Origin: Cliona cf. orientalis
Taxonomy: Eukaryota; Porifera; Demospongiae; Clionaida; Clionaidae
Direction of reading: 5' to 3'
Length of the DNA: 64,000 nt
Assembly: GCA_963930775.1 (NCBI GenBank)
Contig: OZ005694.1
Coordinates: forward strand, 496,001 to 560,000
This document shows, piece by piece, positions 3,129 through 38,098 of this stretch. The notes beneath the pieces were generated by a model. That model saw only the letters and a list, made by a program, of their open reading frames with translations, was not told the DNA's origin and searched no databases. Position 1 is the first letter of the stretch; every line of letters starts with the position of its first letter. The translations under genes and the position numbers were made by a program.

Positions 3129-4190
3129 CTAGCATCTTCTTGGCATCTCTCCTGAAAACGTACACTCTTGGATAGCATTGATAGTGAATGGTGTTTCAAA
3201 TACAAAGTCTTTAAGGTGGCGTACACGAGAACATGCTATAAATGTTAGACCAGTACAAAATTCCTTTTCACCAATTTCAATTACAGCTTTATCAAGAGTG
3301 AGCCCCTGGGATTTATGTATGGTTATCACCCATTAAAGCTTGAGTGGTAACAGTAGCCTTGAACATATTCCATTGGTGCTTGACCAAGTTCGAAGGATTG
3401 GGACAATAGATACTGTTCAATTGGGTAATGTTGGTCCAGAATGTGAATCAAAAGATTCCATGACTGCCGTTGGGAGGGCTGGAGGTCCAGCATTCTGGTG
3501 ACAGATGGCTCTTACAGTACCAATAGCACTGTTAACAAGATCAACATCTATCCACAAACAAGATGTTAACATTACTCTAGCATGTTGTGCAAGATGTACG
3601 AATGGTTGAAGGCCACCTGCATATTCTGTACTTGCTTTGTCAGCTGCTGATCCACTATGTACAGCCTTGATTTGTGCAATTGGACTATTACCTTGTCTAA
3701 GTTTGAAGAGATTGTATTGTACTGCATCATCAACTCGGAGATATGGGTGAATAGCATTCTCAAATGAGTTTAAGTCTGATACATGAGCAGCAGAGCGTGT
3801 CAAGAGGAGTTGCCAATCTTCAGTAGTGATCTGTCCATTTCTTAATCTCATTAAAATGTTTCGGAATATAATTTGTTCTGGCTGTTCACCTTGCTGTCTC
3901 ATAACTTGAGTGAGTACAACTGCTTGGTTGAAATATAAGTAAGCTGCTCGTCCAAGATCAGATAGTGCAGTCCTTGTCTCAGATAGAAAAAGAGGATGGT
4001 CCATGACAGGAGGCAATTGTCCAAAATCGCCAAAGAGTATACATGAACAGCCTCCGAAAACACAATTTGCATTTTGTGGGAATGCTTGTCTGAGCCTTTT
4101 GTCAATTTGACCAAACATTTTTCTGCCGACCATTGACATTTCATCAATGATGATGTATTTAACACCATTCATAGATAGAGTCGTGAAACA
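3129..4190 (-). pseudogene. PIF1-like DNA helicase, C-terminal part, broken
   Basis: On the minus strand the first block (4190 down to 3417) starts at Walker B, KYIIIDEMSM, followed by motif III GDFGQLPPV and a middle region with VMRQQGEQP. The end block (3329-3129) has the PIF1/RecD2 signature ITIHKSQGLTLDKAVIEIG and FIACSRVRHLKDFVF. The join between blocks has a frame change and a TAA inside the sequence LPLKL-stop-WVITIHKSQG. The N-terminal part with Walker A is missing because the sequence upstream (beyond about 4190) is Gypsy retrotransposon DNA. PIF1-family helicases unwind DNA 5' to 3'; Helitrons encode such a domain fused to a Rep nuclease. Helitron relic is therefore plausible, a host or other PIF1 copy is the alternative. 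Confidence 0.75.
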
Positions 4191-4191
4191 G

Positions 4192-5327
4192 CTGATCGTC
4201 CCCAAGAAACGGAGACCTAGTGTGCTACAGCAACTCCATTGTTCCTCGACAGCTGGTCACCTTGGAGTCGAAAAAAACTCTAGGAAAAGTACGGGAGCAA
4301 TTCTATTGGGTACCATGCAGCAAAGATATCAAAACCTTCTACAAGAATTGCGACCTATATGCTACCAGGCGGGGTCCAGCAAGGAAGATATGAGCCCCAC
4401 TAAGCCAGTACAACGTTGGAGCAACCATGGAGCAGCTGGCTATTGACATTCTTGGACCATTTCCGTAGAGCAAACAAGGCAACAAATACATCTTGATCGC
4501 AGCCGACTACTCCACTAAGTGGGTGGAAGCCTATCCTCTGGTGAACCAGGAGGTAGTCACAGTGGCTGAAGTTTTAATTCGAGAATTCATCAGCAGAATC
4601 GGAGTCCCTCTGATCCTGCACTCTGACCAGGGACGGAACTTTGAGAGTGCTGTGTTTTCAGAGATGTGCAAGCTACGAGTCACTAAAATCAGGATCCACC
4701 CACAGTCTGACAGTATGATGGAATGCTTTAACCGTACCCTTGAGGCTCAACTCTCAAAATTTGTTGAGGATCACCGACAAGACCGGGATCTCCTACTGCC
4801 ACTGCTACTGATGGCTTGCAGGACTGCTGTCTATGAAGGTACAGGCTGCACACTGGCTAGTCTCATGCTGGGCCGGGATCTGCGGTTGCCTATTGACCTC
4901 CTTTTCAGGCGCCCCGAGGTGCTCGAGTTTGCACGCACCAATCTGAAAGTGGCTTCTGACGGAAGGAAGGAGATGTAAGACTCCATGGCCGAGGATACTC
5001 CCCTAGAGAAAGGAGAGCCAGTGTGGGTCTACATTCCGCAACGGAAGAAGGGGATCTCGCCAAAACTGATGCGTTCCTGAAAAGGCCCCTACCTTGGTCA
5101 TCAAAAGGATCAATGACTTGGTCTACCGTGTGCAACTCGCAGATTGTGGCGGTACACTAGCCTGTCTCCTCCAACCCTGCTAAAAGGCCAAGATGGTGTA
5201 GGGTGTAGAGGGAGATGTCTCTAGCTCCTGACAAACCACTGCAGCTCCGAAGGTCTAATCGCCAGAGGAAGCCTCCTGAGAGAGTGTGTGATGCCTGCCC
5301 GAGACGTGCAGAACAAGGAGGAGGATA
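4192..5327 (+). pseudogene. Ty3/Gypsy retrotransposon integrase region (5'-truncated)
   Basis: The reading frame begins with the end of RNase H and the integrase zinc-binding region (QLIVPKKRRPSVLQQLH, AGHLGVEK). Next comes the catalytic core: IAADYSTKWVEAYP gives the first D, HSDQGRNFES the second D, and SDSMMECFNRTL the E, where the usual pattern is S-D-G-M-V-E-R-F-N-R. The C-terminal chromodomain-like/GPY region follows (KGEPVWVYIPQRKKG, KGPYLV). Frame changes occur near 4280-4440, a TAG precedes the core (about 4467) and more stops follow 4978, so it is dead. Upstream pol and gag and the 5' LTR are absent; the truncation point lies against the PIF1 helicase fragment. Confidence 0.85.
5314..5327 (+). 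other. Polypurine tract of Gypsy element
   Basis: aaggaggaggatag lies directly before the LTR start, the position where plus-strand DNA synthesis is primed in LTR retrotransposons. Confidence 0.6.
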
Positions 5328-8762: not shown

Positions 8763-10254
8763 CTACTGCTGATGCCAGAGTCTGAAACAGTCACTACCAT
8801 CATTTCTTCCTGTGAGACAGAGCGGAGGGTTGCCTTCACATTCAGCACAAACCCATACCGTGTGGTTCCTACGTGGAGGGGACCGTACTTGCCTGCAGTA
8901 AACACACCGTACACTACTGCTGGAATGTGTTGGTAAGTGAGCTGTTTGAGAGTTAGGGTTGGGGTTGGAGGTGGGGCAAGGGCGTTTACGGGGTCGGCCT
9001 ATTCGTTTCCTTGATTTGTAGGTGCCAATCAACTGCTCGGCTAAAACTGCTTGAGGGTCATAGGAGTACCTGTCCTGACATCGAAGGAGTATAGGATGTA
9101 GGCATTTGTTGTGGAGACGTCAAACAAGAACCAGAATATGTACTTATAATTCTTGGTGCATTTCAAGTGTACATGGTAGTACCCTCGTAGTTGATCTCCC
9201 AAATCAACACCCCCCATGTATTGGTTGTACAAAGCTACACACAGAGGACACTCAACTGCTATCCTTGTTCCATCCTTCTGTCGTCTATTGACAGAGGTAG
9301 TGTCAGTGGGACTAGCTAGCGTTAACACCATATTGACCACCTTGTTGTCTTTCCAGGCAGTCGCTACAAGGTTACCACACTGACGGAAGCAGAACTGACC
9401 ACGATTGAACCGCTTTGCCTCATCACTAATCTCAGAGGGATAACCCTTGCGATTGGTGCGGACTGTGCCACAAGCATACGTACCATCTTCAAAAAGTTTC
9501 GAGAGCAGGCTGATGGATGAGAAATAATTGTCAAAGTACAGGTGGTGATGTCTTCCTTTGATGGACTCGGCTAATGTAAGTACAACTTTTTCCCCAAGCC
9601 CTGTCTCTCTATCACCACATGCACCTGTATAGACGTTGAAGTCATACATGTACCCGTTCAAAGCGTCGGCCATTGCCCACACTTTGAAACCACGTTTTAC
9701 TGGTTTTAGTGGTAGATATTGCTTCATGGAAGACCGATCTTTGAACGGGATCATGGCTTTATCAATACTCACTTGACAGTGAGGGTAATAGGCACTTTGA
9801 AAATTGTGCTTGAGGGCAGAAATGATGGGGTCTACTTTTTGCAGCCTAGAGAATCCCTCCTCTCCTCTCGCTGGCAGGGTATCATTATCGGCAAAGTGTA
9901 GATAACCAGTTATCTGCTCGAACCGATCCCTAGTTATCCTATCAGCGATAGGAGAGTAGTGCAATAACTCGTTGGTGGACCAGTAATCCCTGATTTCTGG
10001 TAGCTTGTTTACACCCATTAGTATCATGAAGCCCAGGTATGCTTTGATTTCTTCAGCGTTGGTTGATCACTCCTTTTCTGTACCTCGAAGTGCTTGCGTA
10101 GCATATCTGTTTGTCTCATCCACAATTAGGCTTATCAGACTGTCATCAAAAAACAGTGAAAAAAGGCCCAAGGGATCCTGAGGTAGAGGCACTTGTGGAC
10201 CTGCCTGTTGTGAGCTCTCGGTAACAACAACAGGACTTGCTTGTGTTAACCACT
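8763..10254 (-). pseudogene. piggyBac transposase (PGBD4-like), one stop and one frameshift
   Basis: DDE_Tnp_1_7 family cut-and-paste transposase acting at TTAA sites. In the main block the three catalytic aspartates are visible: SIDKAMIPFKDRSS, LYFDNYFSS and YNQYMGGVDLGDQL. The C-terminal cysteine-rich zinc domain (RCVYCRQ, VCAECEGNPPLC, CFRLWHQQ) lies in a different frame (8763 to about 9060), so a frameshift sits near 9045-9062. Upstream, the frame continues past the ATG at 10027 through a TGA (10067-10069, probably from Trp) back to an apparent splice acceptor at 10254 (ttccaattacag|agtgg). The N-terminal exon was not identified. Two lesions in an otherwise well preserved gene suggest recent inactivation. 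Confidence 0.92.
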
Positions 10255-28322: not shown

Positions 28323-28529
28323 AGACTATAGTGTGCCACTGGCAGGCTCCGATATTAGGTCACACAGCATAATACCTTAGTTTAGCACGCCCTTCGTAGA
28401 AGTATCCCCTGCGGTTTATAGTCTCGTGCTAAACTAATTGTTTTATTTCCATTTCCTCGTTTCCAATTTCTCGTTTCTCATCTCCCCGTTCCTGCTTCTA
28501 GAATCTAGACCAGCAATACGACTGACCCC

Positions 28530-28600
28530 GGGCCGGGCGATTTTTTTTTTTGGACGTACTTACAACCGGGTCAAAGGTCAAATCGTGCGCGTTTAACCCC
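28530..28600 (+). repeat. Left TIR of the Ulp1-MULE element
   Basis: Inverted match to 34558-34645. It contains the direct motif GGTCAAAGGTCA, which is also present in the related ends at 34640-34698 and 37745-37835, so it may be a transposase-binding site. Confidence 0.8.
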
Positions 28601-28875
28601 TCTTGTGCTGCGCGAGCGTGACAAGCGCGACATACTACGTACTCTGCATCTGACATAATGTACTCAATAATAAATTACGTAGTACGGTATTAGTGCTCTA
28701 GCGCTCATGATCTACACGCGAGTTGCACAAGATCCTCACATGACTCATTTCTTTCCCACCACTTTGGCGGTAAAGTGCAAAAACGAATTGAGCTGGTTGC
28801 TTGCTATCACTGTGAGAGTAGCCGTACCGAAGTTTCAGTGAGGCACAAGACTCCAATTCCACTTCCCTAACAGTC

Positions 28876-31800
28876 ATGACAGGTTACAGACTAACTTGTC
28901 CCCCCTTTTGTGAGCTTCAATCAACGCTGATTGATGACAAGGCAATCACCAGAATACGGGGTTCATCCTCGGAGACTACTGGCAAATGGCTTGATGATGA
29001 GGTACACTAGATCTATAGCTATCACCCGGAAAAATAATAACATTATTGTCATGATACAAACACGTGCATGCAGGGAGTGAATGCAATACTAACAAGGATG
29101 CTCTACTATGCTCAGAAGAATGGCTATGGTACAGTAAGTGGTTCAATAATAGGTCACAGCATGACGCTAGATACACAATTGTCTCTGCAGGACATCTTCC
29201 TGTTTAGTTCCTACTTCTGGGAGCGATTGCGGCGGAATTTTGGCTACGCTTGTCAAGCTGTTGCACAAGTAAATAACCTGCATAAAAATAATACGTGTAC
29301 ACAATATTAATGATCTTGAATGTGTTATAATATACTCAGACCAACTATAAAATGAAAAGCAAGTGGCTTATACCCATGTGCATGTATGGGCACTGGAGTG
29401 CAGCTGTAAGTAATTATTATGATGGGGTATACACGTGAGTATGTCAGACATAGTAAACTATAATTATAGGTTGTTGAAGTATTAGAGAAAAAGATAACAA
29501 TGCTTGATTCCCTGCATACACGGTTGATCAGTGCCTCAGAAAAGCTGAAGTAAGCTATGGTATTACAAAATTAATTATACTTATTATTTAATGTACAAAT
29601 TCAGGAAGTTTGCACAACACACATGTCCAGAAAACCCCAAAGAATGGACAATATTTTTTGATCAGGAGGTAAAATGATAATGGGCATGTGTATACACATA
29701 CTGCATGAGTGTATGTACTAGTCTCGTGCACCAGCCCCTCATACGCAAAGAGAGAGAAGGGTCTGGTGAAAAGGGTCGCACTACCGTGTCCCCATGTTGA
29801 AAATCGTACATGACCAATCAGATTGCAGTAGCGTAGTCACATGACTAATAGAATGTAATAATCTGTTGCATGCGTGCGCCCGGCCTATAGCTATGTGCGC
29901 ACGGTACGGTTTATTCCTATTTAACACACAACAAAATACCAATTATTGCATTCCAGGGGGACACGGTAGTGCAACCCTTTCCACCAGACCCTTTCTCTCT
30001 CTTTATGTAGGAGGGGCTGGCGTGCGAGACTGTGTATGTACGTGCACCAGTATACATGGAATATTCTTACTGATAATAATCAATCAGTGCTAGCATGGAA
30101 CTCTGATTTTATTATGTAGAATGTACCACGACAAACTAATTCATATGACTGTGGTGTTCTCATGATCAAGGTATAAATATATTAATATTATTACAATCAG
30201 CTGATTAATAATTGTGACATTATGTAATCAGGCTCTGGAGAAGATAATATACTCGCAATATCCATCACCACCACTTGATCCAGTAAGTATATATTAAAAT
30301 ACAACACATGCCAAGGATTGAAACCTCAATTTATACAGAAGAGTGGCGCTGTTTACAGACAGCAGTTTCTTGAACTGATTCATGTCAGTATGAAAAGGTA
30401 ACTCCTGCAATGCATGTATTTGCATGCACGGATAGATTTAATGCTTTAATTATAATAGTGACGGTGACGCTGACTACACACCAGTAATCCTAAGGCAACC
30501 AAAGGCCACCCCTGCTTCCACACAAAAAGACGACTTCATAGCAGTGCGAACAAGATCAGCCAAATTTTCACTGTCTCTAAATAGGCCAAACAAGGTAAAG
30601 CACAAGGATAAGGCAATCCAAATGGACATAAGCCACTCTAGTGTTAGTCGTGCTAGTCAATCACCTGTCGAGAAACAAGTTCAATCTATTCCCAATCCAG
30701 ACAAGGCAATCCTAATGGACAGAGACCACTCTAGTGTTAGTCGTGCTAGTCAATCACCTGTCGAGAAACAAGTTCAATCTATTCCCAATCCAGACAAGGC
30801 AATCCAAATGGATAGAGGCCACTCTAGTGTTAGTCATCCTAGTCAATCACCTATCGAGAAACAAGTTCAATCTACTGGCACTCCCAATCCTGACAAGGTA
30901 ATCCAAAGGGCCATAAATACTTCTACACATCATCCAGCTTCCAAGAAGCCAGTCCAATCTAATCTCAATCCTGATAAAGCAGTGGATACAGCAGATCTTA
31001 ATTTTAATCATAAGCAATCTACTCCCAGCCCCCCTATTATTATGGCGACCCAAGTAGATGCCAATTTTAGTCAATCGACTATCGACAATCAAGTTCACTG
31101 TAACCCCAACCTTCATACTAATCATAATTATTGTCAAAGCTCACTGATACTTCAGGACAGGAATGTTAATACCTGCTCTGTATGGGCAACCAAACAGACA
31201 CCTGATCAACCACACCCTCTGAAAAGGCAATTACTAATAACCCAGTATACACAAAATCCCAACAAACAGTCCTCTGATGGTGGAATCAAGCAAGGTAATA
31301 ACAGTAGCGCAAACACTACTATGACTCTGTCAGAAAATAGCAATAAGGAACATAACACGATCAGTCAGCTCTCAAGCACCAGTGATCATAACAAAAAAGC
31401 ACAGATAACTAAAGGACTATCATCATCCACTGATACGTTCACAACTGGTGACGTTGCAAACACAAACCCAAAAATCAGAAAATGTACTATGCCAAACAAA
31501 CAGCAACAAATTCTACCAAAATGCTGGGAAGAGCTCGACTCAAGTTTGCAAACTTTATTACCAAACATTGACAAGGTTACTTATGTAGTAGAAAATCATA
31601 ACAATAGGGAACAACTAAGCTTTGAAGGTGCACCAAAATTTGATTTTGACCTAGTGGTGAGAATTAATTTGGACAATCGAGACCAAGCGAACGATTTTCT
31701 AAATAAAATGATGAAACACAGCTTTTGTACGTACAGGATATCAAGAACGTCTAAAAAACCAGCTTTAAAACGAATAGCATACAAAATTGAAATGCACTGT

Positions 31801-34197
31801 CAGCATTTTAGGAAAACATTGACCACAAAGCAAAAAGATACAGCAGCGCTAGCAAAATCAAAAAAGGCAAGAAAACCATTTACTATGCAGGTTCGTGACA
31901 AGAAAACTCAGTGTCCGTCTCATTTAACGTTAACAGGTCAAATCCCAACCAAAAAACAACTCAAGGCTATAGATATTAAACCTTATTTGAAAACACACAC
32001 AGCTGTTCTCAATATCTCATTTAACCACAATCATCCTATCATATCTGGCCATGCTTTAAGCTTCCGTCCAGTTAGTGCTGAAACAAAGCAGACATTCTTT
32101 GAGCTATTCAGCAATGGTCATAGTGCATCGTCCGCTCGACACACACATGAACAACATCTACTCATGGACGCTGCTACAGATGAATTAAAGCAGTACGCAT
32201 TGGCAGACAGAGACACAAACCCATCTGCTCAAGATATTTGTAGGCTTTTCCAACAGTGGCGTGAAAAACAGTATGGGAAAGATGATGGTAAACCACTGTT
32301 TGAGCGGCTACAAGCAGAAGTTAACAAGTACAATGCCAAACATCGAGAGCAGAATGGGAAGGCTCTCCTACAGTGGTACGAAACACAAACAGACAACTAT
32401 TCAGATGATATAAACAGTGATGGTGAATCCAATCCGCCCCCTCCTAAAAAAAGGAAGAGAGAATCAACGAGCAAACCGTTAGTTCTTGCCATATGTACAC
32501 CTCTAATGGCAAGAGCACATGAACACGTATGCCAAGCGGGAGAATTACTGTTTTGTGACTCAACGTCATCAATGGATAGGTTTAATACTTCAGTATTCGT
32601 GTTGTCTACTCACTCAGTTGCCTCTGGAATACCACTAGGAGTGCTTTTAACCTCGGATGAGAGAGAAGAAACAATACAGACTGGTCTTCAGATGCTAAAA
32701 TCGATATTTCCCACTGGTGCATTCTATGGAAAAGGTTCGGAAGCAGGTCCAGATGTAGTTATGATCGATGACAATTCTGCTGAGAGAGGTGCAATCGCTA
32801 AGTGTTGGCCAAAAGCATGTGTATTATTATGTACATTTCATTTTCTACAGCGACAATGGACATGGCTATATGAGGGCAAAAACAAAATCAACAAAGATGA
32901 CAGAGTCACTCTCATTCAAGAAATTAGGAAACTTGTGAATGCACCTACAGAAGAGTCCTTGACATCCTTATACGACCAACTACTTAAGCATTCAGTATCA
33001 GTGAAATATCCCCATTTTCTTGAACATCTAAAATCAATTTGGACAAAAAGGGATTCATGGGCACATTGCTATCGGCGTAAACTTTTAATCCGAGGCAATC
33101 ATACAAACAATTACGCTGAAGCTGGGATAAAAATCTTGAAGGAACTAGTATTTTCACGAGTAAAGGCATACAATCTTGTTCAAATGTTCACATTCATCTA
33201 TGATATCATGGACATGTATTATCAGAAAAAGCTAATTGCAATTTCTAATCACAGATTTGAAACGTATGTAGCTTTAAGATTTCAAGGTCTTAATGCCAAA
33301 AAAGTTTCAAAGGCCAGCATTATAGACTTGAAAAATGGGTGGTATAAAGTAAAAAGCTGCACATTTCATAAATACTATGACGTTAATGTCAACATTGGCC
33401 TGTGCACTTGTGAAGGCGGACAAGATGGTTCACCCTGTGTACACCAAGCAGCTGTCGTATTATACTTTGGAAAGGAGTCTGTTAATTACATTGCCACACT
33501 CTCAGCAAAGGCTAGACTAAGGCTTGCAACGATTGCCTTGGGCAACAGTGCTATTAAGCAACTGTCATTTTATTCTTCACTACACCAACAAGCTATTGAG
33601 GAGGATACTAACGAACCTAAGGATAACAATCAGTGCTCAGATATCTTAACATTTGAAGGAACAGAATGGGACTTGATTAGGTCAAATACTGATCACCTAG
33701 TGGCATCAAATTCTGAACAGGATTTAAGTGTTTCAGAAATCAATACAGATGAGTTAATCAAAGAAGTGGATAGCTTTGCAAGTAATATTAAATTACAGAT
33801 TGAGCAAAAAGATCAGCAGCTACTTAGTGGAGTGAGAAAATTTTTGACTAGGTACAAAGATCTATCAGCTTACAGATCAACAGCAAGACTGGCATCTGCT
33901 TTTCATCAGTTTGGGTGGGTCTTTGGTGGAGTGATCAGTCGTACAAACTTGAGAGGAAACACTCGTCACGGAAAAAGGATCACTGTCCAAGCTACATCAG
34001 CAGGAAGAAGGCGGGGAGGAAGTTTACGTGGGAAAGCCAAAGTACCATCGGGTAGACCATGTAGTGCTTCTTCACAATCTGGTTTAATTTCTGCCAGCCA
34101 GAACTTCATGCCTACTAGAAAACAGCCAAAAGGAAAGAGAATTCATTCATTGAGTAAGAATGTTGCCAAAGGTTTGCAGAATGCTGGTAAATGGTAG
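28876..34197 (+). CDS. Ulp1/SENP-type C48 protease fused to MULE transposase with SWIM finger
   Basis: Ten exons, all GT-AG: 28876-29001, 29074-29133, 29191-29268, 29340-29405, 29470-29549, 29605-29668, 30120-30170, 30232-30282, 30339-30397, 30459-34197; about 1457 aa, frame kept at every junction. Residues 35-195 form a Ulp1 (SUMO/Nedd8-type cysteine protease) domain: KWLDDEGVN, then catalytic H106 (GHWSAA), D123 (MLDSL), Q163 (VPRQTNSYDCG) and C169. The H-to-D gap of 17 and Q-to-C gap of 6 match known Ulp1 spacing. Residues 262-360 are three 33-aa repeats. C659, C697, H735 and H737 fit a WRKY/GCM1/FAR1-like zinc finger. The MULE DDE core has D912 (FCDSTSSMDRF), D982/983 (MIDDNSAERGA, CTFHFLQ) and E1099 (NNYAEAGIKI). 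A SWIM finger follows (C1194, C1196, C1205, H1207), then a basic tail. No stop or frameshift was found. Plant Kaonashi MULEs are a known Ulp1-MULE case; this animal fusion may be independent. A domesticated host gene is the alternative, but the TIRs argue for a transposon. Confidence 0.85.
29720..30031. mobile_element. CCTCGT-family MITE inside intron 6 of the Ulp1-MULE gene
   Basis: Ends AGTCTCGTGCACCAGCCCCT and its reverse complement GGGGCTGGCGTGCGAGACT, with inverted repeats of about 50 bp including agagagagaagggtctggtg. The whole element lies between exon 6 (ends 29668) and exon 7 (starts 30120) and does not touch either splice site, so the 451-bp intron is long because of it. Confidence 0.85.
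30607..30905 (+). repeat. Three 99-bp in-frame coding repeats
   Basis: Units starting DKAIQMD, DKAILMD and DKAIQMD each carry HSSVS...QSPVEKQVQS. Copies 1 and 2 are almost identical in DNA, so the expansion is recent and kept in frame (33 aa per unit). Confidence 0.9.
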
Positions 34198-34557
34198 CTA
34201 GCTATGCTGAAACTTCCTCACGATCGTGAGTGACTATTCATTACTAATTATTATCAACTTTTATTATTTCTCTGTGTATTTAATTATCTGACCTGAAATT
34301 TTTGTCAGAGATCTAGAAACAAACAATTCCAGTATAAATCTTGAGCCATGATCAGGTCTGGCAGTACTGCTTGAGCTCAGTAATGAACCGGGGGTGAAAG
34401 TAAGTCCAATTATTTCAGCGCAAACAGACCTAGGTTAGAATCACTTTAAATGACTAGATGGAGTCCAGATCATGATCGGTAGCTTAGTCACTCGGGCACA
34501 CCAAATGGCAGTAGGTGGAGCCTATAGGCTCGCTAGGCTGGCCGATCGCGAACAATC
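34198..34557. other. 3' region of the Ulp1-MULE element
   Basis: Non-coding; the likely 3' UTR and subterminal DNA between the stop codon TAG (34195-34197) and the right TIR. No clear AATAAA signal was seen close to the stop. Confidence 0.5.
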
Positions 34558-34645
34558 GGGTTAAACGCACGATTTGACCTTTGACCCGGTAGTCCCCGAA
34601 AAGTCTAAGTCGAAAGTGCGTCCAAAAAAAAAAATCGCCCGGGCC
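34558..34645 (-). repeat. Right TIR of the Ulp1-MULE element
   Basis: Reverse complement of 28530-28600 with an insertion of about 17 bases between the CCGG and the AAGTGCGTCC parts. Confidence 0.8.
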
Positions 34646-34844
34646 GGCAATTTTTGATTTTGGGCGCAGTTAAGAGGTCAAAGGTCATTCTTAACCCGTC
34701 GGCTCCTCTCTGCGCTGACTCGAGAACTGACATCTGTACCAACCTCATTGCAAGCTGGCCAGGAATGAGGACCTGTTGATACAATGTGTACATGTATTGA
34801 AATGTAAGTATGAACGGCATGCAAAGTGATCGGAATTATATTAA

Positions 34845-37409: not shown

Positions 37410-38098
37410 ACCATACCATGCCAGAGACCGTACTCCACCATGTACAATTTTGAACCCTCTTTGCGATCATTATTGTTACACACGTTTATTATTATTTGCA
37501 CAAGTATCAAGTGATGATTATTATTAATATTATGTGAGATAAAATTTCAAACTGTGTTGAAGAGTATAATATTATAGTTCAAGTTGTGCTCGGAAGTGTA
37601 CTGACTTTTATGTTGGTGCATACATGACATTGTAGTAAAGTTAAGTGTCCTGTGAGTCCAAGTAGCCCTGTGACACGTAAATAGCAGCCTGGGTACGAGG
37701 CATCATCGATACATTCACAGACAGTAGTAGATACATGTAGGATTCCGATATTATAATTCCCGTACCAATGGGGTTAAATGTGACCGTTGACCCTCCAACT
37801 GCGCCCAAAATCAAAAATCGCCCCCGGCGAGGCCCCACTACCGTATAGTCTGTTGCTGTTGTAGTTCGGTAGGTTGCCAAAGAAAGGCTCAAAAGTTGGA
37901 GCTGGAAGGTCTTCAGCCAGCGATGGAAGGTATTAAAGAGGTCTATCTCAATATCGGGGACGGACAACAGTCGGCCACGCCAGAGGAGCGATATCATCCC
38001 AGATATAGAACAACGCAAATGCGATCCCCACTAACCCGATCGCGATGGCTATACGTGGACTTAATACGGATGGGAGGGGCTGGGAGATCTAATCTGGG
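37410..38098. other. No gene; right end of the 34640-37835 element and CCTCGT fragment
   Basis: Contains ctgggtacgaggca (37688-37701), a single CCTCGT-family end, and the TIR-like block 37765-37835. Open frames on both strands lack recognisable similarity. Confidence 0.4.

Follow-up and report, generated by a model that had tools for sequence, protein, structure and literature searches.

Within the 64,000-bp window analysed here (C6:496001-560000) of the Cliona cf. orientalis genome (216.8 Mb in 149 contigs), a predicted gene joins an Ulp1-type (C48) protease to a Mutator-like transposase between matching terminal inverted repeats (TIRs). Ten plus-strand exons, joined at GT-AG borders, yield one frame of 1457 amino acids (aa) without an internal stop. 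A single spliced gene of about this length, enclosed by matching TIRs, had been proposed in the preliminary description of this DNA, and as a predicted gene it is borne out. Eight of the nine introns fall among the Ulp1 exons and one lies ahead of the transposase exon, while between the two halves runs a linker of about 350 residues in which S, Q, T and N are abundant (as counted from residue 213 to 580). The anatomy of the element, summarized in Table 1, is almost certainly as described, and the whole is probably an intact, autonomous Mutator-like DNA transposon.

The element had previously been placed at 28530-34645. It does lie there, but the true unit is shorter and the remainder is most of both 9-bp target site duplications. 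The search for duplications of 9-10 bp proposed earlier thus yielded a perfect 9-bp pair; by comparison, of 200000 random draws of two 9-mers, one from each side of the window, 4 gave a matching pair. The TIRs match as reported, although not as an uninterrupted 70 bp: the outer 20 bp are perfect, the right arm then carries 20 extra bases, and an inner block of 28 nt follows at 96% identity. The left end region (28527-28610) has matches at 3 other places in the genome.

Table 1. Features of the element and of its surroundings, in window coordinates
Feature	Position	Strand	Remarks
Whole element	28537..34638	+	6102 bp, inverted ends GCGATTTTTTTTTTTGG
Left 9-bp target site duplication copy, CCGGGCCGG	28528..28536	.	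perfect match to right copy
Right 9-bp target site duplication copy, CCGGGCCGG	34639..34647	.	perfect match to left copy
Left TIR	28537..28610	+	outer 20 bp match right arm perfectly; inner block with GGTCAAAGGTCA; inner limit approximate
Right TIR	34550..34638	-	20 extra bases separate outer and inner blocks; inner limit approximate
Exon 1, protease, ends ...KWLDDE	28876..29001	+	phase and position same in L060
Exon 2, protease	29074..29133	+	joined frame; layout common to L060
Exon 3, protease	29191..29268	+	joined frame; layout common to L060
Exon 4, protease, catalytic H106	29340..29405	+	joined frame; layout common to L060
Exon 5, protease, catalytic D123	29470..29549	+	joined frame; layout common to L060
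Exon 6, protease	29605..29668	+	joined frame; layout common to L060
Small inverted-repeat element in intron 6	29719..30034	.	limits approximate
Exon 7, protease, Q163 and nucleophile C169	30120..30170	+	joined frame; layout common to L060
Exon 8, protease	30232..30282	+	joined frame; layout common to L060
Exon 9, YRQQFLELI, read by position as Ulp1 C-terminal helix	30339..30397	+	helix aligned to SENP5 via relative L034
Exon 10: S/Q/T/N-rich linker, C..C..HxH domain, DDE core, SWIM finger, basic tail, stop	30459..34197	+
Three 93-bp (31-aa) tandem repeats in linker	30607..30885	+	L058 with extra sequence here
PIF1 helicase	3420..4256
Integrase core	4469..4975		just under cut-off
DDE_Tnp_1_7, piggyBac type	9044..10066		1.5e-86
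DDE_3 with helix-turn-helix	51355..52431

Protease and transposase halves

Pfam, run on the protein in two pieces, places a Peptidase_C48 domain in the N-terminal 212 aa (E = 6.9e-13, 49.4 bits against a cut-off of 20.7). By sequence, the nearest solved structures are SENP2 (1.8e-9) and SENP1 (4.1e-9), whereas the Nedd8 protease SENP8 gives a weak match only (0.09-0.12). Given this difference, the SUMO type, SENP1/2-like, is preferred and the Nedd8 type is disfavoured, which favours one side of the "SUMO/Nedd8-type protease" of the preliminary description. The His-Asp-Gln-Cys set (H106, D123, Q163, C169) is complete and lies inside blocks aligned to SENP1/2. The N-terminal protease is quite likely to be enzymatically active, and it is likely, at a slightly lower confidence, that SUMO is the modifier on which it acts. 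No PHD finger and no integrase-core family were found in the window protein by Pfam at E<=1.

Moreover, the genome holds a host SENP-like gene with introns (L064, C7:1623600-1625600; labels beginning with L or P are our own). Comparison by eye of this one gene with the Ulp1 exons of the element revealed two intron positions that agree, after WLN/DD[QE] and before [GN][IV]PxQxN..DCG, and others that differ, a pattern that hints at descent of the Ulp1 exons from an intron-bearing SENP gene.

The region after the protease is predicted to adopt an IS256-like DDE transposase fold, with ISCth4 (PDB 6xgx, 6xg8) as top structural match, and has the features of a DDE transposase of the Mutator/IS256 type. 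The SWIM finger (20.7 bits, cut-off 19.6) is located after the DDE core, with ligands C1194, C1196, C1205 and H1207. In an alignment of 41 rows (A1), D912 is kept in 39, D982 and D983 in all 41 and E1099 in 40, with one gap at this last position; the SWIM ligands are kept in 40-41 rows. The DDE core and SWIM finger claimed earlier are therefore confirmed, and the residue numbers given for both halves (H106, D123, Q163, C169, D912, D982/983, E1099) were all exact. For transposition itself, the one indirect sign is a second copy that is 97.8% identical.

Association of the protease with the transposase

The genome-wide copy search suggested previously was run with the transposase exon and gave at least 46 stretches, including the window itself and often several per element. 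Further copies were found (L058, L059, L060, L061 and L062), but the window holds the one complete copy with an intact frame, and L060 (C4:3633593-3638742) is the one diverged copy with both ends. L060 shares its 17-bp end with the window element and is flanked on each side by CCGATCCGG, so that both two-ended elements carry a perfect 9-bp target site duplication. L058, with 97.8% identity across the 3' portion, has CCGGGCCGG directly before its left end, while its right end was not found within the 9.9 kb examined. Judging from three sites only (those of the window element, L060 and L058), the 9-bp target seems to be CCGGNCCGG or a similar sequence. L030, a tail copy with one end only, adjoins CCGCCGCGG. 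L059 has decayed, with identity of about 77-98% depending on the block, and retains remnants of the Ulp1 exons, whereas L061 and L062 consist of end and subterminal pieces only. An end-like sequence, GCGATTTTTTATCTGACGCACCC..CTTAGA, was also seen at position 1127 of L036, a one-frame relative with a type-2 C48, near its 3' side; it resembles the right TIR of the window element.

The L060 transposase is 49% identical to that of the window, and its Ulp1 exons agree with those of the window in order and phase and almost in length (boundaries set by eye, with the window gene as a guide). Codon positions 1 and 2, compared with position 3 between these two elements, indicate constraint on both halves (p = 2e-5 and 4e-35), and third-position divergence is equal in the protease and transposase halves (0.614). 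Among the introns, 2 and 5 align better than shuffles (0.76 versus 0.57 and 0.79 versus 0.64), and the remaining five gain 0.05 or less, gain 0.06, or fall below the shuffles; as the exons had no shuffle control in this comparison, the claim of constraint draws on the codon positions alone. Intron 7 of L060 holds an inverted-repeat element similar to the one in intron 6 of the window, and the exons are spared in both.

The same pairing occurs in diverged families. L036 and its near-identical copy L038 have a C48-like N-terminus, with the motif GNHWSLLAID..YYGDSL..PLQTCSNICG (read by eye), and a transposase in one unspliced frame, and P0025 carries a partial C48 and a MULE (Mutator-like element) domain, both over the cut-off, also in one frame. 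With a 10-row profile (A3), yeast Ulp1 is reached at 1e-4, in a match that extends to the catalytic Asp. Of the 25 closest homologues, 12 have the last Ulp1 helix among their first 80 residues, and in 9 of these it starts at residue 1; its pattern, which was written after the sequences had been seen and replaced a first, looser version, does not occur in the other 35917 aa of the 40 proteins. Genome-wide, 8 of the 58 MULE-domain matches have a C48 match no more than 8 kb away, in every case on the same strand (137 C48 matches used), whereas 2000 shuffles gave 0.62 on average and never more than 5; both match lists are lower bounds, and the contig extents used in shuffling were estimated from the outermost matches. 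In a DDE-core tree of 54 rows, the 24 rows labelled as C48-bearing fall in one 48-row group (support 100/96), and 6 other MULE rows of this genome fall outside it. The SENP-type and type-2 labels need one change each on this tree, with weak support (76/55). It should be noted that the labels were set by eye and with the last-helix motif, that 30 of the 54 rows are unlabelled, and that L007 was dropped as it lacks core residues. Since diverged families share the pairing, the window copy did not acquire its protease on its own; of the two origins considered before, independent coupling or shared ancestry, separate acquisition by this copy can be set aside.

Several results weigh against reading the element as an intact transposon of a lineage with a protease-bearing transposase. 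The gene model is a prediction from sequence. The MULE domain reaches 26.2 bits in Pfam (E = 1.1e-5), under the cut-off of 27.6, although the same stretch scores 29.6 bits, above it, in the genome-wide search. Pfam calls C48 in just 2 of the 41 rows of A1; it makes no such call in L036, L038, L037, P0028 and P0037, and P0032 reaches only 0.002, below the cut-off. Moreover, 13 of the 25 close homologues do not have the last-helix motif, several of them starting further downstream, and the 48-row group includes 24 rows without a C48 label, P0039 among them. With the Ulp1 part as query, no homologue was found among 223 candidates, for which we suspect that gene callers missed the small exons; the N-terminus of P0037 retrieved 3 proteins, itself included, among 2028 candidates, and no relative was confirmed in the viral and genome contig sets (67 and 174 pattern matches). 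Few near copies turned up in the searches, so that activity is no more than putative.

Two copies bear directly on whether the Ulp1 exons could be a captured fragment, or a separate gene, that happens to lie inside the TIRs. Mutator elements often capture gene pieces. Cases in plants are described in parts of PMC13317346. In L060, no in-frame join of exon 9 to the transposase was found, and this copy may be broken at the exon 9-10 junction. In L058 the stretch matching 28712-30150 is gone; with it went Ulp1 exons 1-6 and the larger part of exon 7, and the C169 codon is interrupted. Copies missing the Ulp1 exons from the TIR-bounded unit had been named beforehand as a sign of chance arrangement, and L058 answers to this in part; yet it retains exons 8-10 and its frame is broken (exon 10 has indels of 87 and 176 bases within its repeats and smaller ones of 1, 4 and 10 bases downstream; the 1242 aligned codons contain no in-frame stop), for which reason we read it as an internal deletion of a fused element. 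The window frame is stop-free throughout, and the shared exon layout of L060, the one-frame fusions elsewhere, the position of the last helix, the codon constraint and the same-strand pairing led us to reject chance proximity, which, judged on these sequence comparisons, appears highly improbable. Domestication as a host gene of transposon origin would fit the fully intact frame and the scarcity of near copies, but the element has intact ends, a perfect target duplication, conserved transposase residues and a 97.8%-identical copy elsewhere, and we regard this as very improbable too.

Known protease-bearing transposons and neighbouring elements

Statements on published elements in this section refer to excerpts of the sources cited. 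According to PMC2836005, Mutator transposons that encode Ulp1 are known from hydra, lancelet and several plants, and a claim to priority for the present element is not supported. The hydra and lancelet elements (MuDR) are likewise animal Mutator transposons that encode Ulp1 (C48); the window protease is N-terminal, intron-rich and without a Pfam PHD finger, whereas a figure legend of PMC2836005 refers to aligned Ulp1 and PHD domains of Ginger1 and Mutator transposases. Thus, judged from the predicted protein, it is the N-terminal position, the nine introns and the lack of a Pfam PHD finger that appear to set this element apart from the published kind. No earlier report of an N-terminal, intron-rich Ulp1-MULE fusion in animals was found in the literature searched, which did not include Repbase Reports and most subscription journals, and the main text of a survey of Mutator diversity (PMC6446971) has 0 occurrences of "ulp", "sumo", "otu" and "protease". 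It is possible, if rather unlikely, that Repbase already lists this family as one of its Ulp1-bearing MuDR elements, as PMC2836005 cites Repbase Reports on hydra and lancelet MuDR for Ulp1; to judge from its legend, however, the Ulp1-and-PHD Mutator alignment may better fit another lineage of this genome. This lineage, L002 (C6:8696807-8700091) with L067 (C6:8699900-8701400), has a ZSWIM1/3-like transposase (PF21056, 1.5e-44) followed by a separate downstream frame with C48 and PHD; L002 is one of the 6 rows outside the 48-row DDE group, and on the strength of the legend its lineage may be the closer of the two to the published animal Mutator type.

The Kaonashi (KIU) VANDAL or non-TIR MULEs of plants are also Mutator-like elements with an ULP and a possible anti-silencing role (PMC13317346, PMC2528002). 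In Arabidopsis, however, their ULP is a separate gene in reverse orientation to mudrA and the elements are non-TIR, with both orientations in melon and rice; the window element has one same-strand spliceable frame, and TIRs are present. Ginger1 is likewise an animal cut-and-paste element with a transposase fused to an Ulp1 or OTU protease, but its transposase is like a Gypsy integrase and its protease is C-terminal (PMC2836005), whereas the window protein combines MULE and SWIM domains, an N-terminal protease and ISCth4 as top fold match. CryptonF and CryptonS are DNA transposons that encode C48 as well, but they are tyrosine recombinase elements, and the C48 cases named are from oomycetes (PMC3212892).

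Structurally, the transposase half of the window protein is matched best by ISCth4, although the latter is a bacterial insertion sequence. ISCth4 belongs to the IS256 family and is not known to carry a protease or a SWIM finger.

Other mobile genes surround the element. At the right target duplication, a second element seemingly begins (34647-~37821), with the end GCAATTTTTGATTTTGGGCGCAG and GGTCAAAGGTCA, and a matching inverted end lies near 37805-37821; by its ends it looks like a non-autonomous relative, and the main element thus sits exactly at its edge. Ten frames of the window were scanned; 6 gave no match. Elsewhere in the genome, three more MULE matches have a downstream C48 (C8:9710151, C1:35479900 and C1:34369371). 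Many C48-matching open frames, 1018-1154 aa long, occur at L068 (C6:575000-579400) and at many places on C1; in L068, of which 945 aa of frame were examined, a PHD finger comes after C48, and Pfam gives nothing at 0.1 for the N-terminal part. These frames are possibly another transposon type.

Possible roles of the protease

We lean towards a Mutator-like lineage in which a SENP-type C48 domain stands at the N-terminus of the transposase and removal of SUMO at the element aids the latter. In such an element, the transposase half would bind the inverted ends through its zinc-ligand domain, and the DDE core would excise the element and insert it with a 9-bp stagger, with a preference for CCGGNCCGG-like sites. 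The transposase would at the same time bring the protease half to the element DNA, where SUMO would be stripped from proteins. The likeliest gain would be element chromatin, together with transposase and repair proteins at the break, kept free of SUMO-dependent silencing or turnover. That relief from silencing is the main benefit is a tentative view, to which we give somewhat less than even weight. We are more doubtful of the broadest form of the proposal, namely a widespread Mutator lineage with a standing N-terminal SENP domain, in which deSUMOylation delivered by the transposase counters SUMO-dependent silencing.

SUMO promotes silent chromatin, and in Caenorhabditis elegans Argonaute-directed silencing needs SUMOylation of a histone deacetylase (PMC8131101, in part). 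Moreover, Ulp1-carrying VANDALs cause hypomethylation of their kin, although the precise role of Ulp1 is described as unknown in the parts of PMC13317346 considered. It is plausible that the protease would de-silence the element. Against this, a section of PMC8131101 reports that HDA-1 SUMOylation is not required for maintaining piRNA-started silencing, which weakens the idea that SUMO removal undoes silencing once settled. The protease of the fused protein might instead act mainly on the transposase, the transpososome or DNA-repair proteins, through their stability, disassembly or repair. For transposon Ulp1 and OTU domains, a role in transposition, for example via DNA-repair factors, has been suggested (a passage of PMC2836005), and DNA transposons of unrelated kinds have repeatedly been found with an additional C48 or OTU protease, as excerpts on CryptonF/S (PMC3212892), Ginger1 (PMC2836005) and CACTA (PMC2528002) indicate; the anti-silencing link of the plant Ulp1-VANDALs speaks the other way, and we consider such a role possible but less than probable. 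Between silencing relief and a role in transposition or repair, sequence alone cannot choose. Self-processing, in which the protease would cleave the polyprotein and free the transposase, could make use of the long linker between the halves. SENP-type enzymes, however, cleave after the Gly-Gly of a folded ubiquitin-like protein, and of the GG pairs at 486, 1198, 1368 and 1398 only that at 486 lies between the halves; this reading is improbable.

Protease-bearing transposons are already known, and for this reason the element is notable rather than startling to specialists; its value is that of a clean, intact and testable case. A transposase with a SUMO protease would offer a simple, testable example of an element fighting silencing at its own locus. 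Finally, because the codons of both protease and transposase show constraint, our findings suggest that protease capture by a DNA transposon can give rise to a selected domain of a lineage, and not necessarily to a stray gene fragment.
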